In this document: positions 9,422 through 56,939 of the stretch, in pieces
How positions within the stretch are numbered: the first letter of the stretch is position 1
Layout of the letters: the number at the start of each line of letters is the position of its first letter
Source of the DNA: Pyropia yezoensis
Lineage: Eukaryota > Rhodophyta > Bangiophyceae > Bangiales > Bangiaceae
Assembly: GCA_009829735.1 (NCBI GenBank)
Contig: CM020618.1
Coordinates: 18,523,346 to 18,587,345, forward strand
Reading direction: 5' to 3'
DNA: 64,000 nucleotides
Notes under the pieces: model-generated
Seen by the model: only the letters and a program-made list of their open reading frames with translations
What the model was told of the DNA's origin: nothing
Database searches by the model: none
Program-made: the position numbers and the translations under genes

Positions 9422-10099
9422 AGGGAGACCGGTGAGATACGGAGCCCGCGACCGTCTCGCTGTTTAAGACGTGACAAGCACGCACCAAAGCGGCAGTAAT
9501 CACGCACACACAAGTCTGTCTGTACGAAGGGGACAAGCAACGAGCACCCCCGTGCGCACATATCCCCCCCCCACACCCCGCACCCAGCGACCCTACACCC
9601 CGGGCCACATGCGGGCCAATCATATCCGAAGCTAGCGGTGCCAGCACGAATCTCCCCGCCCTCCTCCCATGGGTCATCCCAGCCAGCGGGGCAGTGGCCC
9701 CAAAACAAGAACAGCAACAAATCCCTCAACAATGCAAAACTTCAAAAAGAAAGTAGCCCCCCTAGTGGCGGTAAAACCCATACAATTGGGTTCGGCTTGC
9801 GCCCACCCAAATCCATTATCCCAGGGAGATACCGGCACCGGTCTCGGGTCTCCCCTTTCCCGGGTGAGCCGAGGGATCCCGGCGGGACCCACCGACTGGG
9901 GGCCATGCGGATCGCCGCGTGGCCACCCAGTGAGGGCTCCACGTGTGCGTGCCTTGGCACCGGTGGCACCGTATGCCACCGTATCGCCTGGGCTGTGCCC
10001 CTGCGTGAGTGTTGGGGGGGATCCCTCGGATCCCCACATCACGGTCAGGAGGGCATCAAGGTCCCGCACAGCGGCATCGTCCACACCACCGGGACCCTG

Positions 10100-10420
10100 G
10101 CAGATAGTACGGATACCGATGCGCTAGATCCACGTACGACGGGGCCGAGAGAAGTGGCACAGGTAGCCCTCCTGCCTGGCGAGCCCGAGGAGGTACACGG
10201 CACAGTTGGTAGCCCATTCTGTACGAAACATGTACCATGCGAACGCGTCCGACGAACGCAGAAGAGCTCCGTAAAGTAACACTGCACCGCAGGTAGTTCC
10301 ACAAAGCCCCCGAACGGTAGCTCAACCTTCTCAAACCAGTGTAGAACCCGAACGTAATGGAGCCCGCAGGTAGCCGCCGAGCAGCTGAGAAACTCCTGCT
10401 GGTGCCACCCCACAAGGAAC
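10100..10420 (-). pseudogene. decayed member of the antisense-ORF family
   Basis: On the minus strand one frame reads WFEKVELPFGGFVELP. After a frameshift near 10265 another reads AWYMFRTEWATNCAVYLLGL and then RQEGYLCH. These line up in order with three blocks of the antisense ORF of the complete element (WWPQVEVPYG, VWAMLATQW, QRRGMLWH). A family member broken by at least one frameshift is the best explanation. Upstream on the minus strand the homology stops near the LTR fragment at 10457, so its N-terminal third is missing. Function is unknown. Confidence 0.55.
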
Positions 10421-10456
10421 CGATTCTTGTCCCGATGGTGCCGGCTAAACACCATG

Positions 10457-10695
10457 TGGGCCCTGAAGGGGCCAGGGGGGGAAGTTCTTAAGGGGTGCTC
10501 CGGGGTTCTTCCCGGGGCCATCTTGTAAAATCAACAGTACTTTGAGTTCCTTCTCCCGCGGGCTTTTGTCCTGTTTACCTTTGCCTCGTACCGTGGCGGG
10601 CGAGTGAATCAGCAAGGGCTCTTACCTATTCCTTTCTGGGCTTTGGACTGTGGTCTCTCTGTGTGTGTTTGTGGTTTGTGGTTTCGGGAACCTGG
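10457..10695 (+). repeat. LTR fragment, family B
   Basis: It starts at GGGCCCTGAAGGGGCC and is nearly identical to 11960-12200 and to the reverse complement of 18900-19130, including the run TTTGAGTTCCTTCTCCCGCG. It lacks both LTR ends, since the homology stops at about 10695 before the CA terminus. It is therefore a broken LTR in a rearranged cluster. Confidence 0.75.
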
Positions 10696-32230: not shown

Positions 32231-32568
32231 CCCCTGTCACCTGAACAAGGGTCGCTGCCCGCGCCGCCCGTCGAGCTGCCACTACTCCTTGCGCCGGCGC
32301 TGTTCGCAGGCGCCCCTCGCAGACGCCGCTGGCCCCGGGAAGAACGAGGCGCGCTGCCGCGGGTTCTCTCTGCTCCCCAAGAGTACTAGCAGCAAAGACC
32401 TGGAGAGAATGGGCCAATAGACTGGCTCGCACACAGAGCCGGTATCCAACCCTCGCCACACAACGCCCGCAATCTGCGTGAAAAAAGCCCCGCGACGAGG
32501 TCTCGCATGGCGAGATCGGACCCCCCCCCCCCTCTGGAGAGGCCGTACGGGGGCCTTCGGCACGGATT

Positions 32569-33037
32569 TGTGGCAGTATTGACCCCCAGGTAGGGAGGCA
32601 ACACGTGCCATGCAAGGGGCGGCAGGCCACTAGCCTGATCCGTTCCTCCCCCTGCATTTGGGTCCATATTCCCTAAGTTTGGGATAGTTAGCTTAGTAGT
32701 AAATCCAACTTGGATTTGAGGGTTTTCTGCATTTATCGTCTTGAATTTTCGTGTGGCCCGGTGGGCAGGTGCTGGGGTGGGAGATTCTGAGTGGCGAGAT
32801 TCTGAGTGGACCCTGGGGGGATAAGGGGAGGGACAGCGGGGCTTGGCCCGGCGTCCCCGTCCCGACCAAGAAACTGTTGGACCACACACCATCCTCTTGT
32901 TTGTCCGTGGGGGGTTTGCCCCACAACAGGGACAGAGTGTGTGCGACTTGCACTTCTTCCGGTTCCCCCGACACGGGAGGCAGCCCTTGCACACCGCCCC
33001 AACTTGGGTGCCGTGTGTGCATGTGGTTTTTGCCACA
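32569..33037 (+). repeat. 5' LTR of the chromovirus
   Basis: It begins TGTGGCA and ends TGCCACA, a perfect 7-bp inverted terminal repeat. Its differences from the 3' LTR lie in the GGCCCGGCG, AAGAAACTG, GTCCGTGGG, CTTGCACAC and CCGCCCCAA words. Confidence 0.9.
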
Positions 33038-33039
33038 TT

Positions 33040-33057
33040 TGGTGGAGCAGCAGGGGA
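33040..33057 (+). promoter_or_regulatory. primer-binding site of the chromovirus
   Basis: TGGTGGAGCAGCAGGGGA starts two bases after the LTR end. TGG pairs with the CCA of a tRNA, so priming by a tRNA 3' end is expected. Which tRNA is used cannot be read from this window. Confidence 0.8.
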
Positions 33058-33156
33058 CAGAGGTAAGCTTTACCTCCGGGTGCACCCGGGTGTAGGGGGC
33101 CCTCTGTCTCAGAGGAACGGTGGACTTGGACCGTGTCATACGGATCGTCAGCCAAC

Positions 33157-35103
33157 ATGGCTAGCTCGGACCCCCCGTCGTCCGGGGAGTACACGGGTGA
33201 CGCACGTACTTCAGTGCCTTTGAGTACTGGTGAGACACAGGTGGGTTTACCTGGGGTCGCAGAGGGACTAGAGGTCCCTCAAGTCAGCAGGACTGGAAGT
33301 GCGGGCGGGCAACAGGCCACCCCGACTCAGTCGGGAGTTCACTCGGGTGACACTTCTGATGTGGGTGGGCCGAAGTCTGGCCACCGTGTGGTATACTCAA
33401 CGGGAACGTCCCAAGGGGTGAGGACTGTCCCCGCGGGTTCCACTCGGGTTGGAGCCAACTTTGGCTTGGAGCCGTCGCCAACTAGGCTTTCGGAGGACGG
33501 CGGACCTCCGTTGGTCGGCGATGGGCTCGCGCCCATGCCCCCGGTTGAGACCCCTGAGGAACGTGGTTACCCCTCAGGTGGACTCCCGGAGGCGGACCGA
33601 GACTCAACTGGAGTCGTCAATCCCCTCCTCGCGGAAATTGTCCGTCGGGAGGCGACCAATGTGTTGCGGCAGACTTTGCCGGACCTGGTGGTCACGATGA
33701 CGAATACTATTCTGAATCAGATTGTGGCGAGTTTGCCAGATGGCCTTAATGTCCAGACCGGATTGGGGCTTTCGAGCCCGCAGGCGCAGGGGGAATCCCC
33801 CCTTACGCCTATCTCTGGTCGCCCCGAACTGGGGGCGACACCTGTGACTCCCAACGAGGGAGCCACACCGTACTCGGTGGGGCGTACGCCCTTCATGGGG
33901 GAGTTCCCCCCGGAAACGCCGGCGGCTACACCAAGCGCGCCGCGCCGGACTACAGGCACTGAGGGTGAACTTACCCCAGTGCCACAGCGGCTGTTCCCTC
34001 AACGTGAGGTGCCGCCAAAGATCCAGGTAGCCAACCCGGTCTACCAGAGGATCTTTGACTGTGAGACCTACGCCCTCCACAACAAGTCGGTGGTGTATGG
34101 TCCTGACCAGGCCCGAGCCATGGGCCGTGCCAAGAAGAATGCACTTCATTCTTTTGGGCACAAAGCGGAGTGGGATGGAACCCCCCCCCTCCGTGTCTTT
34201 GAGTTCCTACGTCGTTTCACAAAAGCCTGTGACGACAATGCCATAAGTGAAGGCATGGCGTTTTACATGCTACAGGAGTTTACGAAGGGCGACCTGCGGA
34301 CAGAACTTATGTCCGTCATGCCCAGCTCCTCAAGTGGAGGCGCTGGGGAGGTGACGTCCTATTTGGAGCTCGTCAACTGGTTGTTGAGAGCCATGGTTGA
34401 TGAGGCAGCGTTGGCTTCTCAAGTCGAGGAGTTTACGCAAGCCCATCAGGAAGAGGCGGAGGACGAGTTGTCCTTTGCGGAGCGAGTCCGTAAGCTCAAC
34501 AATCTTTGTGGGTTTATTCATCCACAAGCTGTGGTGAAGAGTCGGTTTGTGGAGGGACTCCATTGGTCAGTCCGGATGGAGACCCGGGAGCATAACACTG
34601 CCCGGGCGACCCTGGCCGAGTTGGCTAGGTTCGCCTATCGCAGAGGCGAGGCCTACCGCAAATTGCGGGAGGAACAACGCCAGGAGCGTCAGGCCGAGTT
34701 GGCCAAGGAACGGGAGGAGGCGCGCCAGGCCAGAGAGTTGAGAGAGGCACGCCGAATCCGCAAGGAGAGGGTGGTAGCTGCCGTGGGAACTTCCCAGGGT
34801 ATCCCTTCGTCTTCCCCAGTTGGGAAGACCCCTCCCGGAACAGACCATCGGTGTTGGAACTGCAACTCCGATGGACACTGGGCATACGATTGCCCCAAGT
34901 TGAGTAAACGCATCCAACAACTTGTTAGGAATGCGAGTAAGAAGTCGGCTACGAACGAAGTACGTTCACGCCGCGAGGGTGGGTCTCGACCGGTCGTCGC
35001 GGTCGCCACACCCTCGGCAGAGGAGGCGGACACGTCGTCCTCGGACTCGTCGTCTTCCTCCCCGCCCTCAGATTCGGACGCCAAGTCGGCGGGAAACGAA
35101 TGA
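33157..35103 (+). CDS. gag: Gag polyprotein of the chromovirus
   Basis: The 648-residue product has a long Pro/Thr/Gly-rich N-terminus. A capsid-like helical region follows (FLRRFTKACDDNAISEGMAF and onward). A charged Arg/Glu coiled coil comes next, then a CCHC zinc knuckle, CWNCNSDGHWAYDC, and a Ser/Asp-rich end. Such proteins assemble the cytoplasmic particle and bind element RNA. I took the ATG at 33157 because it stands in the CCAACATGGCTA context shared with the other gag at 843; the longer frame upstream has no ATG. The last sense codons contain GGGAAAC, and the TGA overlaps the ATG of the protease frame. Confidence 0.9.
   Translation: MASSDPPSSGEYTGDARTSVPLSTGETQVGLPGVAEGLEVPQVSRTGSAGGQQATPTQSGVHSGDTSDVGGPKSGHRVVYSTGTSQGVRTVPAGSTRVGANFGLEPSPTRLSEDGGPPLVGDGLAPMPPVETPEERGYPSGGLPEADRDSTGVVNPLLAEIVRREATNVLRQTLPDLVVTMTNTILNQIVASLPDGLNVQTGLGLSSPQAQGESPLTPISGRPELGATPVTPNEGATPYSVGRTPFMGEFPPETPAATPSAPRRTTGTEGELTPVPQRLFPQREVPPKIQVANPVYQRIFDCETYALHNKSVVYGPDQARAMGRAKKNALHSFGHKAEWDGTPPLRVFEFLRRFTKACDDNAISEGMAFYMLQEFTKGDLRTELMSVMPSSSSGGAGEVTSYLELVNWLLRAMVDEAALASQVEEFTQAHQEEAEDELSFAERVRKLNNLCGFIHPQAVVKSRFVEGLHWSVRMETREHNTARATLAELARFAYRRGEAYRKLREEQRQERQAELAKEREEARQARELREARRIRKERVVAAVGTSQGIPSSSPVGKTPPGTDHRCWNCNSDGHWAYDCPKLSKRIQQLVRNASKKSATNEVRSRREGGSRPVVAVATPSAEEADTSSSDSSSSSPPSDSDAKSAGNE
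35091..35103 (+). promoter_or_regulatory. GGGAAAC slippery heptamer and ATGA overlap at the gag end
   Basis: GGGAAAC at 35091-35097 is read in gag as xxG-GGA-AAC, the X-XXY-YYZ phase required for -1 slippage. The protease frame is the -1 frame. Three bases on, ATGA joins the protease ATG (35100-35102) to the gag TGA. Downstream, GGGGCTG and CAGCCTC about 21 bases apart could pair, but the fold is uncertain. Confidence 0.6.
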
Positions 35104-35600
35104 CCGTTGGGGCTGGTCGTCCGAAGCTCACAACGGCAGCCTCGGCCAAGTGGGCCAGGAGCACGAACCAACCGTGCCGGATACTGCGGCGACCTAAGGG
35201 AGTCCGCCCACCTCGGGTAGGACTCCCCAAGAACGTAAACCCACGTCGGGTCATCGCGGTGCTGACGAGTGAGAACTTCCAGGTGGCTGGACGGGTGCAA
35301 TTTGCCCCCGGCCGCGCCTGTTGTGCCCGTATCGTACTTGATACCGGGTCAGGAGCCTCCTTGATACGCAAGTCGCTATTACCAAAGGAGGTGAAGCTCC
35401 AACGCTGGAGGTCCAAAGCTGACCGTATGATTGACATCAATGGTGGGGTACTTCCCATCGTTGGTGCCGTGACCCTACCAACTAGGTTGGGGACTCATGA
35501 GGTCGACGTGACCTATGGTGTAGTTGAGAATATATCGGTACCCCTGCTTCTGGGTACCCCTTATGTTGTTACACAAGTGCCTTTGATTTTGTGGCCCTGA
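35100..35600 (+). CDS. aspartic protease frame
   Basis: The frame, -1 relative to gag, contains ARIVLDTGSGASLI, the D-T-G-S active site of retropepsins, and later VPLLLGTPYV, the conserved flap-side hydrophobic/Gly block. It ends at TGA (35598-35600). The enzyme would mature Gag and Pol. Translation could come from -1 frameshifting at GGGAAAC or from re-initiation at the ATGA overlap. Confidence 0.85.
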   Translation: MTVGAGRPKLTTAASAKWARSTNQPCRILRRPKGVRPPRVGLPKNVNPRRVIAVLTSENFQVAGRVQFAPGRACCARIVLDTGSGASLIRKSLLPKEVKLQRWRSKADRMIDINGGVLPIVGAVTLPTRLGTHEVDVTYGVVENISVPLLLGTPYVVTQVPLILWP

Positions 35601-38346
35601 GTACTGGGTCAAGTTGATGAATGGGGAGACTATCCCCATCCTTGGTAAGGGAAAGTCTGTGGCTCCTGTGACAGTTTCACAGTCGATGCCTGTTTGCTCT
35701 GTGAGGGAAGGGTTTACTGCTACCCTGCGTCTAGCCCGTAAAGTCACGTTGCCCCCCAACTCGGTGGCGCACGTTGACGTTGTAACTGATTATACGGGGA
35801 ACGGGTTGGTGCACCCTCACCCCCGTCTTGCTCGCAAGCACCAAGTGCATGTTGCCCTTGGCACGATGGACTCCAAAGCCCGAGTCCCGTGGAGGATACA
35901 GGTGATGAACCTGAGCTCGTCGCCCCAGTACTTCAAGTCGAGAGCCAAGTTCGGCTATATCGACCAACACGAGGGACCGGTAGTAGCGGTCACCCTCAAC
36001 GCGGGCGCAAGTAGCGACCCGAAGTCCGGAAAGGAGAAGCATCAAGCCAAGTCGGCCGCCTCTCCTCGGCCCCATGTGAACATGGAGGGTGTCCCCCCCA
36101 GGTTGAGGGTTCAAGTTGAACGCCTCTTGGACCAATATCACAAGTTGTGGGATGGTCAATTGGGACTCATGAGAGCCACCCAACACCGGATCGAGTTGAA
36201 GCCCGGTGCACCCCCTATACGCCAACAACCGTATAGAGGAGGACCTCGTTCAAGGGCCCTCGTTAAGGAGCAAGTTGCTCGCATGGAGGCCCTCGATGTG
36301 ATCGAGGCCAGCAACGCCGAGTGGGCGAGTCCGGTGGTTATCGTCCCCAAAGTTGATGGGACCCCCCGGTTTTGTATCGACTACCGTAAGCTCAACGAGA
36401 GCACAGTGAAGGACAGTTATCCCCTACCTAGGATGGACGACTGTCTGGACTCTCTGGGGGAGGCAAACGTGTTCTCTACCCTGGACTGTAACGCGGGGTA
36501 CTGGCAAATTCCCATTGCCCCGGAGGACAGGCATAAAACTACCTTTACCTGTCACTGTGGTACCTACCAGTGCAAGCGCCTACCGTTTGGTCTGTGTAAC
36601 GCGCCGGCAACTTTCCAGCGCGCTATGGACATGATTCTGGCCGGAGTACGGCGGCAGGTCTGTCTTGTGTACCTAGACGATATCATTGTGTTCTCCCGAA
36701 GTCCGGAGGAACACATTGGCCATCTTGGCCAGGTGTTCAAGCTACTTGCTGACGCCGGTGTGTCACTGAAGGCGAGTAAGTGCCACCTCTTCACTCAAGA
36801 GGTGGAGTACTTGGGACATGTTGTCCGTCCGGGGCGTCTCAGTGTTAACGAGAAGAACTTGAGGGCCATTCGTAAGGCTCAGTACCCCCGGACCCAGACC
36901 CAGATGAGGAGCTTCCTCGGGATGTGTAACGTATACCGACGTTTCACCAAGGGCTTCGCCAAGGTGGCGAAGCCGTTGAATGAGCTAGTGAGCTCAACGC
37001 TACCGAAGAACCTGCCTCCCCCAAGTCGGGTGGAGCAGGAATCCTTTGAGACTCTTCGGGACCTTCTGCTGAAGCCCCCTATCCTGGCTATTCCCAGGTT
37101 GGGAGGCCACTACATCCTGGATGTGGACGCTAGCTACGACCAACTTGGTTGTGTGTTGCTTCAGCAGCAGCCGGACAAGGAGTACTTGCCAGTGGGATAC
37201 TTCAGCAAGGGGCTGAACTCGGCCGAGAAGAACTACGGAGTCACCGAGTTGGAAGGACTCGCAGTGGTGTGGGCGGTGACGTCACTTCGTCACTACCTAG
37301 AGGGTGAGAAGTTCCTCATCCGCTGTGACCACCGCGCGTTGCAGTTCATCTTTAAGACGGGCTGTACGAACACTCGTCTCAATCGGTGGAGGGTGCGACT
37401 GGCACCCTTCAACTTTGACATTGAGTACCGACCTGGCAGGCAACATGCCCTTGCCGACGGCCTCTCTCGGGTACCTACCGAGGGGCTGGACACTAACCCA
37501 GTCGATGAGGACATCCCCATCGTGGGGGTAGTCACGCGCTCGGGTCAGGCGTTGAACCCCGAGGCGCCAGGGAACAAGAAGTACTTGCCCCTGTCCCTGG
37601 ACGAGGTGGTGAAGGCCCAGGCCGAGGATCCCTTCTGCAAGTCGCAGAGGGATACACTGGATACAGTGGTGGAGACGCGTTTCTTTCTGGGAGACGATGG
37701 CCTCCTCATGAGGAGGGGGGTATTCCAAGGGGCTGAACAACTTGTCGTCCCCGCATCCCTCAAGGACAGTATCCTTGAGAGGGAGCACAACGCTCCCACG
37801 GGTGGACACCTGGGGTCTAGTAAACTGTACCAGACCCTGAGGACCAGGTACTACTGGCCGTCCATGGTGGTGGACATCTACAGTTGGGTGGCTGCCTGCA
37901 CAAGTTGTGCACAGAACCGTCTGATGGAACGGCGGCCTACTACGGCTATGCTATTGTTCCCGGCCAAGGAGCCCTTCGCCGCGTTGGCGATGGACATCCT
38001 TGGGCCACTGCCAGTGACCGAGGAGGGGAACCAGTACCTCCTGGTCATCTGTGACCGCTTCACGAAACTTACGCGAGCGATCCCACTGGCAGAGATCACG
38101 GCCATGTCGGTCGTGTCAGCCCTCCTAGATCACGGGGTTGCCGCGTATGGCATCCCGGATAGTACACTATCGGACAATGGACCGCAATTTGCGTCTGTAC
38201 TGTTTCAGGGAGTGCTGGATATGTTGGGGGTTAAGGCAAACTATGCCACCCCCTACCACCCACAAACTAATGGGCAGGTGGAGCGCTTCAACAAAACTAT
38301 TGTTAGGCAGCTGCGCCACTATGTGAGTGAGCACGTGAAGACGTGA
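35587..38346 (+). CDS. pol: Pol: reverse transcriptase, RNase H and integrase (stopped by TGA)
   Basis: The frame opens after a TGA at 35584-35586 and overlaps the protease end; the first ATG is 35614. It encodes RT (FCIDYRKLN, LPFGLCNAPATFQ, VYLDDIIVFS), an RNase H (DVDAS, TELEGLAVVWA, CDHRAL, ADGLSR), an HHCC zinc finger (HNAPTGGH ... CTSC), and the integrase core with the DDE residues in MDILGP, LSDNGPQF and GQVERFN. It stops at TGA (38344-38346), where W is expected before DQYISILTTAYN, and the same frame continues after the stop. A TGG-to-TGA mutation is the simplest cause. These enzymes copy and insert the element. Confidence 0.92.
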   Translation, partial: FCGPEYWVKLMNGETIPILGKGKSVAPVTVSQSMPVCSVREGFTATLRLARKVTLPPNSVAHVDVVTDYTGNGLVHPHPRLARKHQVHVALGTMDSKARVPWRIQVMNLSSSPQYFKSRAKFGYIDQHEGPVVAVTLNAGASSDPKSGKEKHQAKSAASPRPHVNMEGVPPRLRVQVERLLDQYHKLWDGQLGLMRATQHRIELKPGAPPIRQQPYRGGPRSRALVKEQVARMEALDVIEASNAEWASPVVIVPKVDGTPRFCIDYRKLNESTVKDSYPLPRMDDCLDSLGEANVFSTLDCNAGYWQIPIAPEDRHKTTFTCHCGTYQCKRLPFGLCNAPATFQRAMDMILAGVRRQVCLVYLDDIIVFSRSPEEHIGHLGQVFKLLADAGVSLKASKCHLFTQEVEYLGHVVRPGRLSVNEKNLRAIRKAQYPRTQTQMRSFLGMCNVYRRFTKGFAKVAKPLNELVSSTLPKNLPPPSRVEQESFETLRDLLLKPPILAIPRLGGHYILDVDASYDQLGCVLLQQQPDKEYLPVGYFSKGLNSAEKNYGVTELEGLAVVWAVTSLRHYLEGEKFLIRCDHRALQFIFKTGCTNTRLNRWRVRLAPFNFDIEYRPGRQHALADGLSRVPTEGLDTNPVDEDIPIVGVVTRSGQALNPEAPGNKKYLPLSLDEVVKAQAEDPFCKSQRDTLDTVVETRFFLGDDGLLMRRGVFQGAEQLVVPASLKDSILEREHNAPTGGHLGSSKLYQTLRTRYYWPSMVVDIYSWVAACTSCAQNRLMERRPTTAMLLFPAKEPFAALAMDILGPLPVTEEGNQYLLVICDRFTKLTRAIPLAEITAMSVVSALLDHGVAAYGIPDSTLSDNGPQFASVLFQGVLDMLGVKANYATPYHPQTNGQVERFNKTIVRQLRHYVSEHVKT

Positions 38347-39084
38347 GACCAATACATTTCTATTCTTACTACCGCCTACAATTCGCAGGTTCACTCATCT
38401 ACCGGGGAAGTACCCCTCGCTTTTGTGACCCCCCGTCGTGTGCGGTCTATTGCCGTGCGGCGGTCTCTCCCAACTAGGGAGGATGGTGGCAGTACGCCTA
38501 CTCCTACTGAGAGTAAGGCGGAGTTCGCTGCTAGGCTTGAAAACCTCATCCCTAAAGTCAGGGCTGAGATGGACAAAGCACAAAAGCGCTACAAGCGTAC
38601 CTTTGACAAAAAGGTGCGCAATACTAAGCACGTCCCCGAGCAGGGTGACTGGGTGCTGGTACACTCGCACACCCCAACTGGCGGTAAGCTGGTATTCCAG
38701 ACGAAGGGGCCGTACCAGGTCCTTCGTACTGATGGGCGGCGCTGCACCATCGAAAGTGACGATGGGGTCCGCACAGTGAACGGACAGGACGTGGTCAAAG
38801 TTGCACCACCGCCTGCAGGCGACCCAGCTTGGGCGCGTGCTTTGGAAGCGTGGCGCCTCCCCTCACTGCCTGCGGCCAAACAGGGCCCGCAGGAGTATGT
38901 GTTCGATAAGTTCATCGACCACGGATGGGATGAAGACACTGACCGCCTCATGTTGAGGGTGCGTTGGTTTGGCTACAAAGCCAAGGACGATAAGTGGGAG
39001 TATGTGGAGGACCTTCCCGCTGAGAAGGTCCGGGCGTACTGTGCCCGGAATGAGATAGACCCTAACAGCCCTCCCTCAACCTAA
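38347..39084 (+). CDS. pol: Pol C-terminus: integrase tail and chromodomain
   Basis: This is the continuation of pol in the same frame after the TGA. It completes the integrase helices (AYNSQVHSSTGEVPLAF), then a GPY/F-type module (QTKGPYQVLRTDGRRCTIES). It ends with a chromodomain (LRVRWFGYKAKDDKWEYVED and a final acidic/aromatic helix). Chromodomains direct chromovirus integration through chromatin contacts. Without read-through of the TGA this part would not be made. Confidence 0.85.
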   Translation, partial: DQYISILTTAYNSQVHSSTGEVPLAFVTPRRVRSIAVRRSLPTREDGGSTPTPTESKAEFAARLENLIPKVRAEMDKAQKRYKRTFDKKVRNTKHVPEQGDWVLVHSHTPTGGKLVFQTKGPYQVLRTDGRRCTIESDDGVRTVNGQDVVKVAPPPAGDPAWARALEAWRLPSLPAAKQGPQEYVFDKFIDHGWDEDTDRLMLRVRWFGYKAKDDKWEYVEDLPAEKVRAYCARNEIDPNSPPST

Positions 39085-39173
39085 GGGAAGGCCGAGCAAC
39101 AGTGCCAAGAGAGTGCTTCAAGTGGAAGTGGTACGCAGAGTGGCTTTTAACTACAGCCCTAACCCTCACACTC

Positions 39174-41138
39174 TCACAACAAAGGCAGCTGCCAACTAGG
39201 CACGCATGCTAGACTCTCCCACTCCACGGCCCTCGCCCTCACGTGGAGGCGAGCGGCGAGACCCACGCCGATAACGGTCTCCACTCGTTGGAAGGGGCGG
39301 CGGCTCCAAGTCAGAACCGTCGCGCCCTTCACGGTCGCGCAAGTGGCGCCGACCGTGGCTACTCTTCTGCCTGGTCTTGCGCGCAAGTTTGCGACGCAGA
39401 CGCTGGACAGACTCCGTCTCCGACGGGGTAGAGGACTCCGAAACGGAGTAAGACAACTCTTCTTCCGACACGGTGAAGAGCGCCGCGAGTGTCGGCGACG
39501 ACGGCGAGGAGGCGAGTATGCCCGGCTCGCGCGACGTTTGCCACGCCCAAGTGGGGCTGGCTGGGGCATAATAGCCCCAATGCGAGCCAACTCGGCTGTC
39601 ATAAACTCCGCCACCGACTCGCAACTCGCGGTCGCCACTGCAGTACGAACGCGCTCCTCAAGTTGAGGAGTCTCGGAACTTTGGAGGGTTGCGGTCGACG
39701 CGGCCAACCAGGAAATGGTGCGCAGCAACGTGGTGATCATCATCTCTGAGGTTAGAGGCGTGGGCGGTAACACCAACTTGGGGTATACCGTCAGGAGGGT
39801 GGCCCCCAAGTTGGAAGACACCGGGGTGGATGACTCCACGGCCACGCTGATCGGGATGTTCCCGTGAGGCTGGAAAGGAACAGGAGGAAGCGGAGGGGCA
39901 CGCCGAGGTGGCGGTACCCGGGTATAACTGCGACCCCGACTTGGGGCCCCCGCAGTAGGTTGAGTCATATGGTCATCATATGAGGGCACAGCCATAACTA
40001 TGGGCTTGTCCGGGGGTGGCGCAGTGTGGCGATCCACCCCCGGGGCATACGGGTAGTCCCCGATGCCCAACCCCTCTCGTAGGACCACACGGCCGTCGTG
40101 AAGTTCACGAGCGACCCACACGAACTGGCGAAGTGCGCCATCGTCCTTGGGCCCACGAGTGGGGCGGCGAAACTTGTGCTCAATGCTCTCCCACTCGATG
40201 AACTTATGGAGCCGGAGCATCTCATCAAGTAGAGTGAGTTGTCCTGATGAGCACCCCTCAGCAACTAGCTGAGGGGTGAGCTGTTCCAAACCTTGGATGA
40301 GCCGGAGGGGGAGATGCCAGAGCATCCCCCGCCGCTGAACACAAGACACCCAGGTCGACATGACCTCGAGGAGCCACTGGGTGGCCAACATGGCCCACAC
40401 CAGGTGATCAGGGCCAACCGTCAACATGACGGAGCCGAAGTGGTCAAGCAACCGTGGCAGCAACGCCGGGAACCCGTAGGGGACCTCAACTTGAGGCCAC
40501 CACTCGGGCTTCTTCGGATAGTACTGCTCCTTGCTGGCAGCAGACTGTTGAGGAAACTCAAGTTGAGCCGAGGTCACCAAGTAGGGACCTCGCCGGAAGT
40601 CTTTCTCCATCCGCACATCAAAGTGATGAGTGTGCGGATCGGCCTCGTGGAGGTACGGGGGGCGAGTTGCCACCGCGTCCCAAGTAAAGGTCGGCAAGTC
40701 GCCGGGACCCGGGATAGTTCCCCCGCGGTCCACCATGGCCTTGGCACGCTGAACGTCCTCAACCTCCTCATCGTCCAGGAAGGCAAACTGGTCCGTCCTG
40801 AAACCGGCAGGGAACCCGACCCTACGGGGATACTTCTCCCGTAGGCGGTCCCATACCCGATTCATCGCTGCGCCAAGTCGGCCACAGCGAAGAACAGTCA
40901 ACCCCTCCTCATAGAGAGGCCAAGCGGGGTAAAACCACCGCCCCAAGGCCTCACGCGGGACAGCTTGTCCCGCCTCCGGGGGAGACCCCGCCGTCAACCC
41001 AAAGCCGGGTGACGCGGGAGTCCCATCCCCCGGAGCGATCGCGGAGCCCCCGCCGGAAGTCCCGGCGGGTGCTGCACCGTAGGTGGTGTCCTCCATACGC
41101 TCATCTAGAGAGTCCGTCTCCACTCCCGGGGTCGCCAT
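39174..41138 (-). CDS. antisense ORF of the chromovirus, unknown protein family
   Basis: A minus-strand ORF of 654 codons from the ATG at 41138 (Kozak-like AGCCATGG). It lies between the chromodomain end and the 3' LTR and converges on pol. Core blocks are RVWDRLREKYPRRVGFPAGF (about 94-113), WWPQVEVPYG (213-222), VWAMLATQWLLEV (247-259), QRRGMLWHLPLRL (268-280) and DGRVVLREGLGI. A Pro-rich linker and an Arg/Ser-rich basic tail follow. A neighbouring frame at 39196-39624 gives a different Ser/Glu and Arg-rich tail, so the true C-terminus may be shifted. The core blocks recur in three other places in this window, which argues for a real protein. I do not recognise the family. The basic tail suggests nucleic-acid binding, as inference. 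Confidence 0.75.
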   Translation of the reverse strand: MATPGVETDSLDERMEDTTYGAAPAGTSGGGSAIAPGDGTPASPGFGLTAGSPPEAGQAVPREALGRWFYPAWPLYEEGLTVLRCGRLGAAMNRVWDRLREKYPRRVGFPAGFRTDQFAFLDDEEVEDVQRAKAMVDRGGTIPGPGDLPTFTWDAVATRPPYLHEADPHTHHFDVRMEKDFRRGPYLVTSAQLEFPQQSAASKEQYYPKKPEWWPQVEVPYGFPALLPRLLDHFGSVMLTVGPDHLVWAMLATQWLLEVMSTWVSCVQRRGMLWHLPLRLIQGLEQLTPQLVAEGCSSGQLTLLDEMLRLHKFIEWESIEHKFRRPTRGPKDDGALRQFVWVARELHDGRVVLREGLGIGDYPYAPGVDRHTAPPPDKPIVMAVPSYDDHMTQPTAGAPSRGRSYTRVPPPRRAPPLPPVPFQPHGNIPISVAVESSTPVSSNLGATLLTVYPKLVLPPTPLTSEMMITTLLRTISWLAASTATLQSSETPQLEERVRTAVATASCESVAEFMTAELARIGAIMPQPAPLGRGKRRASRAYSPPRRRRRHSRRSSPCRKKSCLTPFRSPLPRRRRSLSSVCVANLRARPGRRVATVGATCATVKGATVLTWSRRPFQRVETVIGVGLAARLHVRARAVEWESLACVPSWQLPLL

Positions 41139-41463
41139 GGCTCTCCCCAAGTTGGGGAGAGACGCTCTGGCTATCGCGGCACGAGACGCGCCTCGAGTTG
41201 AGGGGGACTCGGATCGTGGGTATACGGGTGGCCTCCCCAGCGTGGGGCGGCCCAGTGGAAGGTGAAGGGGAGGTGGTGGTGATGGTGAAGTGTGAACTGA
41301 GGAAAGCAAGCTGCCGAGTGGGCAAGCTTGAGGAGAGGGGCGGTCAACGTGACCGCCTCCACATCCGTGTTACGTACTCGATGGGGGACAGCAAGTCGCG
41401 CCCCCAACGCCGAGACGTGCGTTTACGCACCCCCTCACAGGGCCGACCGGGTCGGTCGGAACT

Positions 41464-41476
41464 GAGGAGAGGGGAG
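41464..41476 (+). promoter_or_regulatory. polypurine tract
   Basis: GAGGAGAGGGGAG lies directly before the 3' LTR. It is all purine and in the right place to prime plus-strand synthesis. Confidence 0.75.
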
Positions 41477-41945
41477 TGTGGCAGTATTGACCCCCAGGTA
41501 GGGAGGCAACACGTGCCATGCAAGGGGCGGCAGGCCACTAGCCTGATCCGTTCCTCCCCCTGCATTTGGGTCCATATTCCCTAAGTTTGGGATAGTTAGC
41601 TTAGTAGTAAATCCAACTTGGATTTGAGGGTTTTCTGCATTTATCGTCTTGAATTTTCGTGTGGCCCGGTGGGCAGGTGCTGGGGTGGGAGATTCTGAGT
41701 GGCGAGATTCTGAGTGGACCCTGGGGGGATAAGGGGAGGGACAGCGGGGCTTGGCCCTGCGTCCCCGTCCCGACCAAGAACCTGTTGGACCACACACCAT
41801 CCTCTTGTTTGTCCGGGGGGGGTTTGCCCCACAACAGGGACAGAGTGTGTGCGACTTGCACTTCTTCCGGTTCCCCCGACACGGGAGGCAGCCCTTGTAC
41901 ACCGCACCAACTTGGGTGCCGTGTGTGCATGTGGTTTTTGCCACA
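41477..41945 (+). repeat. 3' LTR of the chromovirus
   Basis: The same 469-bp unit as the 5' LTR with five differences. GGATT (41946-41950) follows and repeats the bases before the 5' LTR. Confidence 0.9.
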
Positions 41946-41950
41946 GGATT

Positions 41951-43234
41951 CCGTGCCGATCTAGCGTGCCGAACGCCCTATATGGCCTGGATTGGCCGCC
42001 ATTCCAGGTCTCTGGGGGCCATGCGCTGGACCTCCCGGGTGGCACACGACTCTATCCTCTCCCGACGGCACCGCGGCGGGTTCCGTTGGGTGGCACGCCC
42101 CGAGCCCCCGCCCGTCCCAGCCTCCCCCCCCCCTGTTCAACCCCCTCCCCCTCCCCATCCCGCACCCCCCCCCCCCTCGGCAACGCACCCCCGGCCAACC
42201 GGACCGACTCCCGCCCAAAGAACCCCCCCCTCTTTCCCGCCATCCCCCCCGACCCGTCGCCCCCAGCACTTGCGCGGGACCCGACCAAATTCGGTCACCC
42301 ATCATTGTCACCACTTGGGGCATTGCGCTGGACCTCCCGGGTTGCACCCTCCTCCATTCTCACGCAGTCCTGCCCACCGCACGGGCGGCACGGGCCACCG
42401 GCTCCGTCCCCGCGAGCCACCCTCCCAGCCGAGGCGTGGCGTGGCGGCGGGTGCCACCCGGCGGCCTGCTCCCAACCCCCCAGCCCGGCCCCACCCGTCT
42501 CAGTGCCCCCCTCCACCCATCCTCCCTTCTACCAGGACCCTCCCTCCCCCCCCTGCCTGTATCACCCTCCCCCCGTGCCATCATGGCGGCACCCGTGCCA
42601 TAATGGCGTAAGGGGGGGGTGGGGATGATTCCCACCGGCCTCTCCCCAAACCCAACACCTTAAGGTGGGACCCGCGCCCCGCAGGGCCACCCGATCATGC
42701 GCGGCGCCGCGGTGGATGACGTTGCGCGCCCAGCCCCCCCCCGCTGTCCGCCCCACCACCCCCCTTTTTCTTCCACCGCCCCCTCCGACCGCACTGCGAC
42801 GGGCGCCGATCAAGTATTGTCACCCATCGTTGCCTTGCGGGGGGTGTCCTGACCCATGACCCCCCCGTGGATACTGTAGCGCTTTGGGGGCATGCTCCCT
42901 CGATTCCATCCTCAAAATCCACCACCGCAGCGGAGCCGCCGCGAGCCCCGGCAAAGGGTGCCTCCGGGCGCCTCGCCCACGACCCCCTCGCACCCCGCCC
43001 TTCCGGCAGGCCAACTCGAGACGATCATAGCTTGCCTTCTGTGGCCATTGTGCTTCTTTTCTTTTTTTTCCGGGCAATATTAAGCACAAGGCATCGGGTA
43101 GTAGGGGACGCAGCCATGCCGTGTTGGTCGGTGTGAGGACCCACCCACAACCGGAGAGCCCTCAACGTACGCATGGGGGTGTCAGCGGGCCCTGCCAGCC
43201 AACAGGGCGGCAGGGTACGGGGAAGAGGACGGTG
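41951..43234. other. no gene; C-rich with a partly repeated segment
   Basis: The word GCGCTGGACCTCCCGGGT occurs at about 42024 and again at about 42327, and a word like GTCACCCATCRTTG appears near 42296 and 42820. Between them are long C runs. ORFs in several frames are Pro/Ala-rich products of composition. Confidence 0.5.
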
Positions 43235-43530
43235 GTCTTGACGGGGGTGGGTCTGGGGAGGAAGATGGTCGCGACGTCGGTGAAGATTGAGGGTACAAAG
43301 GGTAAATGGGGTTCTTTGTCTGTGTCTGTGGTTGCCCCTCTTCTCTCCCCCGGTGGCGCCGACACCCACGCACTATATACTCACGTCGGAGCACCCGAGG
43401 TGCCCCAAAGCATGCGTTTCCATGTCGCGCCGCCGGTAGGCACCGAACGGCTCAAAAACAAAGCATGTCTCTCAGAACAAAGCATGGGCGGGCGTGCGCA
43501 CTAAAGGAGTGCAGCTCCAGCTTGCAAGAA
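43235..43530 (+). repeat. dispersed repeat D, copy 2
   Basis: Homologous to 8330-8600 in the same orientation (see that entry). It carries TATATAC at about 43374. Confidence 0.5.
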
Positions 43531-44120
43531 ATGAAAGGGGTCCGGTGGATGGCACTCAGCGCGCCCCACCAGCCGGCTCCAAACGCCGGTCGGCCGGGAG
43601 GTCCGACCGGCTGTAAGGGCCAGCAGGGCCAAATTCAATCAATCCCTTGGCCAGCCAGCCAGTCACCAGCCAGCTGGCCGAATTCAGTCAATCCAAAGGC
43701 CGGCGAGCCAGTCATATCACACTCAGCCGCCAGCGAGGATGTGTGGTGTCCCCGGTGTCGGTTAATCATGTGACTCGTCCTTGATTGCCAGCTTTCGGCC
43801 AGCGCAGAGAAAAATGTTCTGGCAGTCACAGACAGGGATGTCCTCCCGTGGTTGGTCGACGATGTTACTCGTTCCTCGTTGTCGAGTTTCGACATCCACG
43901 ACCAGGTTCCGACAGTGAGTTGACGACGGTCTTCGTGCGGCCAGCCGACGTTCGCAGAATGTCAGGAGTACAGCGTGGTGTCGCCCAGGGTAATGCGGAG
44001 CTGATCTGTCTTGGGAGGAGTGAGCGGGGCAGGACATGTAAGGAGAGGTCCCAGTCCATATCCCCTGGGTTCCAGGCGTGGATTTAAGGGGCAAATCCTT
44101 ACAGTCGGTCTGGCTTAGGG
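43531..44120. other. no confident gene
   Basis: GCCGGC/CAGCCAGC-rich sequence, with the word CCAGCCAG repeated near 43650-43720, and then the 3' flank of the pogo-like pseudogene. Confidence 0.4.
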
Positions 44121-45770
44121 TCAGTTCATTTCTGTGTCCACAACGGACATAATGGAGTCTGCGCAATCTTCATCACCCAGCCACACCTCAATGACAGACA
44201 GCGCACGAGGATGGCTGCCAGGAATGAAGACCTCATGCGTGCTGTTTGCACCCCCGCGAAACCTGCCGACCGCCGACCGGGCCCACGCTCCTCGCGCTGC
44301 GCAGCAGTGCAAAAATGGCCTGCGCATCGTCAGTCTAGGGGGGCTCGCGGGTCGCCGCCACCGCCTGGTCCAGCCTCAACTGGATGAGGCGCGAAACGTC
44401 GGGGGGGGTGCAGTCGGCGCGCAACCAGCAGCGCATGATGGCAGTGGCGGACAGGCCATCAAAAGCCTCCTCGACGAGGCCGATGGCATCCAGCACGTGC
44501 GGCGCTCCCCCGTCCGCCACGCCGAGGGATCCGGGCCTCGCCCGAGCATCCCTCCTCCGCCGGGCGTCCCACTCGGTCGAGGTCTTCTCAAATTGCTGGT
44601 CAAACGCCGCCAGCATATCTCGGATCATGCCGCGCTTGGAGGTTGACTTAACCGCGTTGATGGCGCCTTTGTCCGCCGGTTGAAAGCGCGCCGTGGTATC
44701 AAAAAGCCGCGCTGCGCCGTAAAGGCGGCCCAATCAGCGCTCAGGTCGGCCAGCCGATTGGCATACACGGTGGAGTTCATCCACGCGTTCTGTTGGCTGT
44801 AGTACCTTAGTGGAAAATCTTGCACCCCACGGAAGCAAACCGGCTCGACCGCCTTCCCAATCACGGAGAGAGACTTGAAGGTGCCCGTTGCGTTGACGCC
44901 CATGATCAGAGAGTTGCGTGCTTTTACCGTCTGCAAGGCAGTACCACGCGCTTCCCGTGCATCACAGTCCAAGACGTAGCAGCACGTTGGCGCCAGTTGG
45001 TAAAATAGCGCCGCGTCGTCCATGTTGAGGATGCAGTCTGGGTCAAGCCCAACAAGTTTTGCCCGTAGTTCAGCCATTCTTGCTTCCCCTTCCACCTTAT
45101 CCACATCGCCACCGGCGCCGTGGAGGTGAATGCTTCGAACACCGTGTCGCCTTGCGCAGCGGTCGACAAACCCGTTCGACGCCGAGAAGTCCTGCCCAGG
45201 GTAATGGCGATGCGCAAGCTCGCGGGTTTTGAAGGATAAAGCCAGCCGAGAGAGGGGCATCGTCTTGCGCCCCATGGTCCGAATGCGCAAAAACCATTCA
45301 GGAAGGAGGGAGTTTACTAGTGGGAAGCGGCATGGCTGCGCGCACCGAGCAAACGAAGGGTTTCCTGCAGCAGCGGCGGCCCACACGTCGCGCCGCCGTG
45401 CGTACACGCTGTGGATGGTCCGCTTGGAGATGCCGTATATCAGGGAAAGCACATTGCGAGGGACCTTGTCGTCGACTTGGGTGATGAGCAGCTGCTTCTG
45501 CTGGATGCTCAGGCTTTCCCTCCTCGGTCGCTCGCCGCGCGCGGCGCCTGGAGCAGCAGCCCCAGACACTCCAGGAACTGGGGGTGTGGGTAGAACTGGC
45601 GGGGGGAACGGGTCTTGTACGGCTTGGCCAGCGCCGTGGAGGGCAGCGCTTGCTGGTCGCTCCCTGCGAGGGGCGCTTGTAGCAGCAACGGGAGACGCCG
45701 GGGGGCCTGGGGTTGCGGGTAGAGCTCGGGGGGGGGGGGCTGTTTTGTAGTGATTGGTGAACGGCATCAA
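44121..45770 (-). pseudogene. pogo/Tigger-like transposase (CENP-B fold, DDE_1), deleted
   Basis: Minus-strand order: a Pro/Ala-rich leader, a psq-type helix-turn-helix (QQKQLLITQVDDKVPRNVLS), a second helix-turn-helix of the CENP-B type (SASNGFVDRCARRHGVRS), then the DDE_1 catalytic domain beginning ILNMDDAALFYQLAP with its first Asp. RNSLIMGVNATG and the F-R-G-V segment follow. The frame then fails near 44700. One frame over, the C-terminal catalytic block is found (TTARFQPADKGAI, with the third acidic residue). The expected segment with the second Asp (LLLDN) is missing, so a deletion removed it. A further frame at 44121-44327 may be the C-terminus. The gene cannot encode an active enzyme. 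Confidence 0.8.
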
Positions 45771-46262
45771 GGGCAGCTGCGTTGACGCCTCGGCCGTCCC
45801 GGGTCGTGAGGGAGTAGGGCGGCAGTAGTCAAAGGAGCAGTAAGGAGGGATCGTGAGGGGGAAGGACCTTCTTGAGCGCGGTCCGCCATGTCAATCAAAG
45901 AAGGCTGGAAAGCGTCAGGGTCGTGGGGAGGAATGGGGTGCGTTCGTATGCTGGATGACGGTTGATCTGTGGATGGTGGCGTGTCGCGTCGGGGGTATAG
46001 GTTTGGCGACGGCCGGCGACATCGACCAGTTGTCTTCCACAAAATATGGCCAAATACAGCAACAAGTGCCAGAACAAGTGACACGGCAATTTTTCCATAA
46101 CGCCTCCAAAGAGCGTAAATATATGTTCAAATCTCGCCTCTATGGAGGGCCACTTGATGCGTACCCCCCCCTCAGTTGTGCCAATCGGCACAACTGCGGA
46201 GTGGCCAAGTGAGAGGTCGCACTGTAGCTGTGCTGCAAAAACTGTACATACTTATTTTAGCT
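45771..46262. other. intergenic, no gene
   Basis: Upstream side of the pogo-like gene. A simple-repeat G run at 45729-45739 lies at its edge. No further feature was found. Confidence 0.4.
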
Positions 46263-49300: not shown

Positions 49301-50823
49301 GGCCCTCGGGCGGGACGGGGCGGGAAGCGTGGGGGGGGGGGGGGGTGAGCGGGAGGGAAAGGGGGGGGGGGGGGGCGAGGGGGGCGGGGGGGGGGGGGGG
49401 GGGGGGGGGGGGTTCCCGCGCCCCATCCCCGGGCACCACAGCAGCGGCTGATGGGTGGGTGAGGGTCGTATCTACAAACCGCGATTCCCCGTGCCCCACG
49501 TGTCCATCGGCAGGTGGTACCGCCCGTGGGCATTGTCCAAGGCCTGTTACCACAACGGCTTTGTATGGCACCCACGTCGAAATTGTACCCTCCCGTTGGC
49601 TCTGGTGCACCACAGCGGGCGACGAGACGCGCCACGTCAAAGCAAAGCCCGACCCTGATTGGATGATACGAAATATCCCGTCTCTGTGGGACGGGCCCCT
49701 GGAAAAGGCGAAGGGACGTCTCGGGCACGCTCCCACGCCCGACTCCGACTGACAAGGGGAGGGGGGGGGGTTGCGCATGGGTGTCCGAGCAAGCAGCGCT
49801 TGCTTCCACATCATTGGGCGAACGTCCGTGCTGGTCTCGCGTGAGTCTGTTGTCAATAGAGCTCTGGAACCCTCTCTCCCGTGCACCGTCCAAAAACCAG
49901 GCTTCACAGGCCACCCGCGCACCCGCGTCCTTGGAGGCTGTGGACAGACCCACGCGCACACCGTACGTGGATCGTCAATCGTTCCACACGCGCGCGGCTC
50001 GTGCGCGCGTCGCGATGCGTACAGTAAAAACGAGCACACGGCCACTAATCGCATCTCTTTGCACCTCAGCGGCGACACGGTCACGTTCGCCGATACTGCC
50101 TACCAATGTGGGGCCCGGCTGCAGTATGGGGCATACAGTACTGGCCTTTGTCGCGGGGGGGCCGTGGCACACACATAGAGCATGTCGCCTCAGCCGCCTG
50201 GGGCGGCCTGGTCCCCTCCCCCAACCGCACACAACTCGCCCTCGGGGTTAGACGCTTCCCGGAGAGCGCCCCGCCCGGCCCTTCTCTCTCAACCGTCCTT
50301 GGAGGCGCACCCCGTCCCGTTCTTTGCCCGTGACGGATGATGGGTGCGCTTGTCGAGCACTGCGAGCGGCCCAGGTATGTACCCCGCGGCGCCGGGGGCG
50401 CGCGGCTTCGCACTAATGCCCAGCCGCCCATGGCGGGTGAAGGGGGGGCTTGACTAGTATTGGGGGCGGCCGGGGCCAGCACCCTGCAGCGCAGGGGGCG
50501 GGCGGGCGTGCCCGGGCCCTGCAGCTCCCCTCCTCCCTCCACCATGGGCGGGGCCCCCAGGCAAGGTGGACGGAGGCGTGGCGTGAAAAAGATGGTCACG
50601 CACGGGAGGGTGCTGTGCGTGGTCGAGGAACGTGCTCCTGGAGGGGCGCTAGTGTAGCCGAACCGCCCTTACGCACGCGCTCTCTGTGACACACGCCTGT
50701 GCACAGGCATCCCTCAACACGACCCAACCCGCACCCACACTGTTGGTGGTTGTGCCCTTCCCCGCGCCCGCCCGCCAGGGCCGCCGCGCCCCCATCTTAA
50801 TCCTGCCCCACCCCTTTCTATCC
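46396..50823. other. 4.4 kb without a confident gene
   Basis: Many overlapping ORFs under 270 codons occur on both strands, but none shows motifs or a consistent frame. The minus strand at 47.3-48.3 kb has somewhat Cys-rich pieces (for example LDGCLLCGKGVNKVQ) that may be a decayed gene. A TATA-like word (ACATATATACG) lies at 47268. There are G runs at 49329-49412, including one of about 28 G. Confidence 0.4.
49329..49412. repeat. poly-G-dominated low-complexity tract
   Basis: Runs of 9 to about 28 G are separated by single A, C or T bases. Such tracts can form G-quadruplexes and are prone to length change and assembly error. Confidence 0.8.
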
Positions 50824-50828
50824 CCACG

Positions 50829-50840
50829 GGATATTAAAGC
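50829..50840 (+). promoter_or_regulatory. TATA-like element upstream of the stand-alone gene
   Basis: GATATTAAAGCC lies 260 bp upstream of the ATG at 51101. It resembles the CATAAAGGCGG words upstream of the genes at 59954 and 57711, suggesting a shared core-promoter style. Confidence 0.4.
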
Positions 50841-51100: not shown

Positions 51101-52147
51101 ATGGAGAACCAAGACGCGCCCAACTCTCTCGCTGTGTCCTTGGTGGCCGCCCTCCCCGCCACTCCCGGCCTGTCGTGGACCGCGACCCTGCGCGACTGCC
51201 GTGCTCGCGACCGCTGGGCGACTCTGCCGACGCACGTCGCCTTTTTTCCGTGGTCGCTATTCACGTCCCTCTTCCCTTTGGCCGCGCCGGTACCGTCTAA
51301 CGAAGTGGCAACCGACGGGCTGTTTTTGCACACTCCGTCGGAGCAGGTGGAGTTGATGGCCATGCAGCACGTCTGCGACAAAGCCGACCTACCGATAGGT
51401 AGCCTGCCGTCCTTTGACCCGGACAACTACCCAGGCGACATCCCGACGGCGGTCCACGAGGCGCTCGGGTACAAGGAGAGTGCCGCACACCTCGAGCGCT
51501 TCTTCCGTCGCAAGCACCGGGTACTGGTGTGTGCTTCCCAGGTCGAGTGTGTGTCCATGACACACGACAACCTCACTGACCTGTGTCCGGCGCTTCCCTT
51601 GTGGTGGTTCCAGGTGGAGGTTCCGTACGGCATGCCCGTGGCACTGCACCACGTCGTCTACTTCCGCGGTAGTCTGCTACAGTACGACCGGCCTGAAAAT
51701 GGCGCTGCAGCCGCCTTGTCCAGTTCGTGGCTGCTGGGCGTTGCCGTCGTGCTGGCGGGGTCCGTCGTATCGAAAAAGATTCTGTGGGTCATCTCTCAAG
51801 ACTTGGCGGACACCCTCGCCGAGGCCGACCATGCGGCGCTGTGCAACGGGGACGACACGCTGCGCCATGTCTTGGGGGAAGCGCTCGAGCTACTACGGCT
51901 GGTGTGGATCGATCAGTACGCAGTGGAGGAATTCTTCAGGGAAGCCCTAAACGAGCGGCGCGCCTTGCGCTGCGAGTACAGCCCAGAGGGCGGCGCTGGC
52001 CGTGTGTACCTGCGGGAAAGCGTGGGTCTCCCGCGCCCGTTCTGCACCTCGGATGTGCTGGCGGACGTCGTGATGCCTGGCGTGGCGCCGGTGCCCATCA
52101 TTACGCCCCCCATGGGCTTTGGTGAGGGCGTCCCCGCCAGCATATAG
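51101..52147 (+). CDS. stand-alone homologue of the chromovirus antisense ORF
   Basis: From the ATG at 51101 the 348-residue product shares ordered blocks with the antisense ORF at 39174-41138: LWWFQVEVPYGMP against EWWPQVEVPYGFP, SSSWLLGVAV against ATQWLLEVMS, SKKILWVISQDL against RRGMLWHLPLRL, and GGAGRVYLRESVGL against LHDGRVVLREGLGI. It lacks the Pro-rich linker and basic tail. No frameshift or stop interrupts it, no LTR is next to it, and a TATA-like word lies upstream, so it may be an ordinary or domesticated gene. A relic of an otherwise lost element is possible too. Its role is unknown. A second, decayed member lies tail-to-tail 150 bp downstream. Confidence 0.7.
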   Translation: MENQDAPNSLAVSLVAALPATPGLSWTATLRDCRARDRWATLPTHVAFFPWSLFTSLFPLAAPVPSNEVATDGLFLHTPSEQVELMAMQHVCDKADLPIGSLPSFDPDNYPGDIPTAVHEALGYKESAAHLERFFRRKHRVLVCASQVECVSMTHDNLTDLCPALPLWWFQVEVPYGMPVALHHVVYFRGSLLQYDRPENGAAAALSSSWLLGVAVVLAGSVVSKKILWVISQDLADTLAEADHAALCNGDDTLRHVLGEALELLRLVWIDQYAVEEFFREALNERRALRCEYSPEGGAGRVYLRESVGLPRPFCTSDVLADVVMPGVAPVPIITPPMGFGEGVPASI

Positions 52148-53660: not shown

Positions 53661-53674
53661 GTTATGTACATAAC
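53661..53674. other. 14-bp perfect palindrome, copy 1
   Basis: GTTATGTACATAAC is its own reverse complement. It recurs exactly at 54013. Confidence 0.8.

Positions 53675-56895: not shown

Positions 56896-56939
<44 letters not shown>

Follow-up and report, generated by a model that had tools for sequence, protein, structure and literature searches.

A conserved protein family encoded antisense to gag-pol in chromodomain LTR elements of the red alga Pyropia yezoensis

The LTR element and its antisense reading frame

We analysed a stretch of 64,000 nucleotides of Pyropia yezoensis DNA (contig CM020618.1 of assembly GCA_009829735.1), referred to here as the window. It holds a Ty3/gypsy LTR element of 9,377 bp with TG...CA ends, 469-bp LTRs and the target-site duplication GGATT (Table 1). 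The reverse transcriptase, RNase H and integrase domains stand in the chromovirus order and are followed by a C-terminal chromodomain match (E 0.0041) that lies under the curated cut-off. The copy in the window is broken, with one in-frame stop between the 919-aa pol piece and the chromodomain piece.

Antisense to gag-pol, between pol/chromodomain and the 3′ LTR, lies an open reading frame of 654 codons, which converges with the chromodomain piece across a gap of 89 bases. An earlier note, made from the letters of the sequence alone, had described such a frame on the strand opposite gag-pol and put it at about a fifth of the element; both statements were borne out, the frame being open throughout and covering 1,965 of 9,377 bp (21%). 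The stop-to-stop frame extends over 39174-41369 (-), or 731 codons, and the remaining five frames over the same segment contain 16-21 stops apiece. A stop-free frame of at least 731 codons arose in none of 2,000 simulations under a first-order Markov model of 39085-41477, the longest reaching 483 codons; together with the frame-specific dN/dS given below, this agrees with the note's view that the frame is not a chance one. The C-terminal ~96 residues of the window protein are read in a different frame from that of the majority of copies of its family (family A), and this window-type C-terminus is common to at least seven further A loci (L002-L008).

Table 1 Features of the LTR element and members of the antisense protein family in the window
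Feature	Position	Strand	Details
Short family fragment	10048..10530	(-)	Profile E 5e-5 and 7e-4 with two of three profiles, no match with the third
Target-site duplication GGATT, left copy	32564..32568	.	Flank comparison
5′ LTR (TGTGGCA...TGCCACA)	32569..33037	(+)	464/469 bases identical to 3′ LTR
gag with CCHC zinc knuckle, open frame	33067..35103	(+)	PF00098 E 2.2e-5
Aspartic protease frame, weak match	34941..35600	(+)	PF13650 E 0.0031, 18.6 bits, cut-off 24.3
pol: reverse transcriptase, RNase H, integrase	35587..38346	(+)	PF00078 6e-37, PF17917 2e-30, PF17921 7e-18, PF00665 2e-11
Chromodomain piece, pol frame continued	38347..39084	(+)	PF00385 E 0.0041, 17.4 bits, cut-off 25.1
Antisense ORF	39174..41138	(-)	654 aa, new protein family; ATG at 41138; from ORF reading, homologues and dN/dS
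Region upstream of antisense ORF, slow-evolving; candidate promoter site	41139..41476	(-)	Raw divergence among A copies
Polypurine-tract-like run GAGGAGAGGGGAG adjoining 3′ LTR	41464..41476	(+)	Read from sequence
3′ LTR	41477..41945	(+)	LTR comparison
Target-site duplication GGATT, right copy	41946..41950	.	Flank comparison
Family member B	51101..52147 (stop-to-stop 50801-52147)	(+)	348 aa from ATG; 26% identity to antisense ORF, E 6e-15

Several further repeats and mobile-element remnants were seen in the window. At 1-225 (-) the window contains the edge of a different gag, with 33% identity to that of A, and a Tc5-type transposase frame lies at 44625-45890 (-) (PF03221 E 4.5e-5, DDE_1 E 2.8e-4). 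An array of a 36-bp unit at 13881-14620, reported as 14 overlapping copies, overlaps a 412-aa frame at 13925-15163 (-). Two direct repeats of ~240 bp (10458-10696 and 11965-12202), 91-94% identical and 1.5 kb apart, were also found, one of them overlapping the short family fragment.

Members of the protein family in the genome and beyond

Block-wise homologues of the antisense protein had been claimed for three other sites in the window. Two of these stand: the site at 50801-52147 (+), which gives a profile E of 3e-137 with a profile containing it and of 2e-40 with a profile built without it, and the short fragment at 10048-10530. The third gave nothing to E 10 with three profiles run on six-frame pieces of at least 30 residues. 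The site described there as outside any LTR element, 51014-52147, belongs to a separate dispersed repeat (repeat B) with a length above 9.5 kb, which spans about 47624-58927 of the window and recurs at L025, L026, L027, L038 and L039. Pol was not found in any of the fetched loci of repeat B. The right end of the repeat lies near ...TTTCCCCACC, and the window copy is interrupted by other insertions. At L038/L039 the repeat holds two diverged copies of another unrecognised ORF, recognised by eye, which start MPGHAAHSLHGG / MPRRPIHTANGG or MPRRSIHTANGG.

Both family members of the window are repeated across the genome. With the window ORF as query, 60 of the 68 best-scoring A copies (of 4,665 candidates) contain no stop inside the match; most of the scored A copies are near-identical and match residues 1-559 only. 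The query 51014-52147 matches at least 109 places, namely itself, 29 at 48-86% identity (with some fragments of a single copy among them) and a further 79 at 25-34% identity, many of which have open frames several hundred codons long.

Twenty ten-kb loci were fetched, four of family B and 16 of families A, C, D and F. Among the 16 non-B loci, 13 have a chromodomain on the opposite strand facing the 3′ end of the antisense ORF, and a fourteenth (L024) shows the same arrangement once the adjacent stretch L041 is included. The exceptions are L023, with no chromodomain match, and L032, where the nearest one is 5.7 kb off. All eight best A loci (L001-L008, L001 being the window) have the chromodomain convergent with the antisense ORF. 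Four chromodomain families (A, C, D and F) thus have the antisense family at one position and in one orientation, and a weak match (24.5%, E 3e-6) shares both in a lineage G (L040/L036). Family F (L036) and lineage G represent further chromodomain lineages, each in a decayed state. Within a C copy (L024) sits an inserted LTR element, with 848-nt repeats, whose pol is 32.7% identical to that of A; this element has neither a chromodomain match nor an antisense ORF, so the ORF is not needed by all LTR elements of this genome. A stretch of the window at 43132-43617 is 84% identical to part of the LTR of this ORF-less element and is, from that identity, probably a solo or partial LTR.

Protein searches, each scoring ~8,000 candidates, identified P0002, P0004 and P0005 (source 'lgn') and P0003 (EukProt) as relatives. 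The name format of P0003 (contig_3307_g703) resembles what we take to be an older nori gene set, and for this reason P0003 is not counted as another species. Six proteins from JGI metagenomes and ENA (P0006-P0011) are 31-39% identical to C, one of them being on a 77.6-kb contig. Homologues therefore occur beyond the element lineage of the window, a point on which the earlier note had made its claim depend: in families C, D and F, weakly in G, in repeat B and among these metagenome and ENA proteins. No relative was found in the phage, IMG/VR and GTDB prokaryote collections. Neither P0001 nor nine family members matched a Pfam family (the latter at E 1), and a Pfam scan of 12 members returned a single match, at chance level (E 0.21). 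A PDB sequence search with P0001 gave nothing, and the profile gave two chance-level rows (E 0.3 and 0.35). In the tree, family E, that of P0006, groups with D (85/95) and C with F (97/97); A and B are on long branches and their joining is weak (73/83).

Selection and divergence

dN/dS was calculated from codon alignments by the Nei-Gojobori method, uncorrected for codon or transition bias. Between C1 and C2 copies, the antisense frame has a dN/dS of 0.17-0.21 at dS 0.88-0.97 in all eight pairs. In four of the five remaining frames the ratio is 1.2-2.5, and in the fifth, which has its third positions in common with the antisense frame, it is 0.31-0.35. Values among A copies are 0.22-0.50 (10 pairs). 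Loci with stops or large breaks were left out (L003, L005 and L007 of A; L022, L024 and L035 of C; L010 and L015 of B). Close copies within the other groups give 0.37-0.68 for C1 (6 pairs), 0.42 for C2 (1 pair), 0.43-0.96 for B (15 pairs) and 0.40-0.90 for D (6 pairs, one of which gave 0.95 in another alignment). These close-copy values are not decisive alone, because other frames sometimes give equal ones, and their looser range is what would be expected if much of the divergence arose after insertion. The earlier note had proposed selection on the protein of an unrecognised family and named a ratio near 1 between copies as a result that would speak against it; the ratios at depth lie well away from 1, and selection on the protein sequence is well supported.

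Pol is more tightly held than the antisense protein. Its C1 x C2 dN/dS is 0.08-0.09 (6 pairs), which puts the constraint on the antisense protein at about half that on pol. Identities in pol are 63-64% between C1 and D, 57-65% between C2 and D (partial pieces), 57-60% between A and D and 54-57% between A and C, and those in the antisense protein are 31-35% for C-D, 26-29% for A-C and 23-25% for A-D. C and D are thus the nearest pair in both proteins, but the order of A-C and A-D differs between them, so the divergence pattern gives only partial support to joint inheritance of pol and the antisense gene.

The region upstream of the ATG evolves slowly in family A, a stretch of 345 nt showing raw divergence of 0.017-0.070 against an ORF dS of 0.094-0.220 in the same 10 pairs. 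In C the upstream stretch differs by 0.18-0.19 from that of L021 and by 0.53-0.54, hardly alignable, from that of L023. The slow change of this region in A may be due to the polypurine tract or to further signals acting in cis.

Possible functions and comparison with known systems

The loci and alignments contain a gene of fixed place and orientation in several chromodomain families, with constraint at the level of its protein. The conserved core, approximately residues 90-360 of A, has invariant Trp, Pro, Gly and Glu residues and the motif PxWWxxxEVPxG, from which P0002 departs by one missing Trp and P0009 also differs at that position. The protein ends are rich in Pro, Gly and Ser and are family-specific. 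Runs of at least four Lys/Arg residues, two in A, are present in A sequences only among the 19 examined. Two AlphaFold models are of poor quality (mean pLDDT 39 and 45), so that no fold backs a role with nucleic acids; in their helical centre the best blocks of ten residues score 70-86.

As a whole, the explanation that we favour, and consider somewhat better than an even bet, is a conserved antisense accessory gene with a regulatory, nucleic-acid-associated protein that likely serves the element's own expression. Its first part, a conserved protein-coding accessory gene, we regard as highly probable; a regulatory, nucleic-acid-associated protein, suggested by analogy, is put forward tentatively, at rather less than even chances. 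In this explanation a red-algal chromovirus lineage would carry an accessory gene antisense to gag-pol whose protein is under purifying selection. By analogy with plants, transcription of the gene would start from a promoter of its own, lying either between the ATG and the 3′ LTR or within the LTR itself. The protein would work in trans, and would likely be nuclear and act on transcription or silencing of the element, as has been proposed for the antisense ORFs of Grande, RIRE2 and Retand.

A second Gag-like or an Env-like product of the antisense strand, serving as a structural or particle protein, is an alternative that we consider unlikely. A core that is helical in low-confidence predictions, tails that vary and a linker rich in Pro would suit such a protein, and the carriers also contain gag and pol. 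By hydropathy alone, one segment of the core is borderline for a membrane segment in the metagenome proteins (1.65-1.85) and in B (1.91-1.93); the 19-residue maximum in the analysed A, C and D sequences is 1.23-1.47. Comparison of the family profile with that of the elements' own gag by hhalign gives a probability of 0.7%, both profiles being shallow. An Env-like protein would be expected in sense orientation after pol, and the ORF here is antisense, an orientation that would separate a structural protein from the packaged mRNA.

The elements are also rich in short inverted repeats, which bear on a second alternative. These are 2.8- to 5.3-fold over dinucleotide shuffles in the window element (32569-41945) and in L020, L022, L029 and L030, 2.5-fold in F, 2.3-fold in the ORF-less LTR element and 1.7-fold in B; three other stretches of the window give 1.4-, 0.9- and 1.1-fold. 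In the A element, CCCCAA-N-TTGGGG ranks top among all 4,096 six-base half-sites with spacers of 0-4, with 20 occurrences where 30 shuffles predict 0.8. In A, C1, C2 and D we counted 24-38 dyads in which no fewer than 7 of the 8 pairs match, against shuffle means of 4.7, 3.7, 6.8 and 5.8-6.5 (six shuffles each), the counts for C and D covering whole loci with their flanks, and the ORF-less element has 15 odd dyads against 4.0 and 8 even against 2.3. The arms are free, and the core and parity are family-specific, odd with AAsTT in A, where the arms match around 11 of 40 such cores, and even and TA-centred in D; among the odd cores of C1, CTwAG has matching arms in 7 of 18 cases and CGwCG in 4 of 29. 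The excess is also seen within gag, pol and the antisense ORF, where the encoded proteins do not account for it: the dyads survive synonymous-codon shuffling in seven of seven element genes, with their number reached by 0 of 200 shuffles, and no such excess is kept in the B gene or in two other ORFs of the window. No strand preference beyond that of random windows was seen.

The dyads of some families also change slowly. Their divergence is 0.052-0.147 between C1 and C2 against 0.148-0.231 for the rest, and 0.021 against 0.047 in A, but they are no slower in D (L030 vs L029, 0.037 against 0.036) and hardly so between C1 and F (0.289 against 0.307), and choosing intact dyads biases this comparison towards slowness. 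The insertion site of the window element is itself a perfect odd dyad, GGCACGGATTCCGTGCC (flanks 32549-32568 and 41946-41965). Dyads as general integration targets of A were rejected: of 10 other A copies checked, five lacked a 5′ edge within the sequence fetched, one lacked a target-site duplication, and none of the four with both LTR edges and a duplication lies in a dyad (3-5 of 8 pairs). A role of the dyads as RNA hairpins was not supported, the internal mismatches being 95 G-T against 88 A-C in nine sequences with no consistent side (those of A lean to G-T, 7 vs 4 and 4 vs 1), and the coding-strand folding of 368 dyads giving p 0.023 against zero but p 0.45 against random windows of the same regions.

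Signals of this kind would be in keeping with an anti-silencing factor of the VANC kind, which binds its own element and lifts host silencing. The VANC proteins of Arabidopsis VANDAL elements are, in the passages on them in PMC5735166, likewise accessory proteins with variable regions and family-specific DNA signals, a likeness that we take as analogy only. The elements here bear family-specific dispersed signals with the palindromic cores given above, and the antisense protein changes more quickly than pol, which is how a factor caught in an arms race would behave. Compared by description, however, VANC targets (those of VANC21 among them) are tandem arrays of one motif in non-coding DNA (PMC5735166, same passages), whereas the dyads are free-armed and dispersed across coding DNA too. 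The dyads may be binding sites of the antisense protein, but the ORF-less element has them too, and in repeat B the excess is only 1.7-fold although a family member is present there. A factor of the VANC kind is for these reasons unlikely. More speculative still, and to our minds a long shot, is the idea that the fast-evolving protein of an ancient antisense gene recognises the dozens of dyads along its own element and so marks its own DNA against silencing, element and signal having co-diverged in each lineage; if true, this would be a self-made control system, a retrotransposon counterpart of VANC independently evolved in red algae.

Alternatively, the chromovirus ancestor may have captured a host or foreign gene on a single occasion, and its descendants may now transport it as cargo; repeat B would then be either another carrier or the source of the gene. 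The position of B as a distant relative in another repeat, in whose fetched loci pol was not found, is consistent with capture, but no host or other lookalike gene appeared in Pfam, solved structures, the phage, IMG/VR and GTDB collections or the protein searches of ~8,000 candidates each, and we judge this origin improbable. Capture concerns the origin of the gene, not its function, and is compatible with the regulatory accessory gene favoured above. That the antisense RNA alone matters, as a dsRNA source or a brake on gag-pol, with the open frame incidental, is very improbable: retroelement antisense RNAs can be regulatory (in the passages concerned of PMC7264820), but dN/dS is 0.17-0.21 in this frame against 1.2-2.5 in four others, and separate families hold 25-35% identical proteins with a common core.

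The regulatory reading draws on systems in which the same arrangement has been described. The TRP28 proteins (Transposase_28, PF04195) of Retand elements are also antisense, lie between pol and the 3′ LTR and have been proposed to be regulatory, and TRP28 is described as confined to flowering plants (both in the relevant passages of PMC11963269). The comparison of sequences with plant antisense proteins was made for TRP28, and no link was found. PF04195 gave no match in the genome at E ≤10, in nine members at E 1 or in 12 members at E 10, and the published strict spacing of six conserved TRP28 residues is present in none of 19 family sequences. With the domain sought and not found, the antisense protein is, as judged by sequence, not a member of the TRP28 group.

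HTLV has an antisense gene as well, which we take to be the one also known by the name HBZ. Compared by description, HTLV APH-2 is likewise antisense, driven from near the 3′ LTR and regulatory, in this case in a retrovirus (passages of PMC11963269 and PMC7264820). In the same two sources, the passages on Grande gene23, RIRE2, Silene Retand and PvRetro13 describe genes that are likewise antisense, placed from pol to the 3′ LTR and conserved across copies and families, with function unknown; the functions of antisense genes near the 3′ LTR are called unknown in the review text concerned (PMC7264820). Retand belongs to a non-chromovirus lineage of flowering plants, whereas the carrier here has a chromodomain match and comes from a red alga. 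Titles and abstract openings of open-licence PMC articles about antisense reading frames of LTR elements, chromoviruses and retrotransposons of red algae contain no report of this protein family. The antisense ground plan is thus known from plants, and the protein family and its chromodomain carrier appear to be new. Repeats make up 48% of the Pyropia yezoensis genome, with LTR elements predominant (as stated in part of PMC7423979), and given this predominance a regulator of LTR elements would matter for genome size and silencing. The family offers a second system for asking what such genes do, in a cultivated alga with a chromosome-scale genome, and the finding of a second protein family in the same position, in red-algal chromodomain elements, suggests that the antisense arrangement has been favoured more than once.
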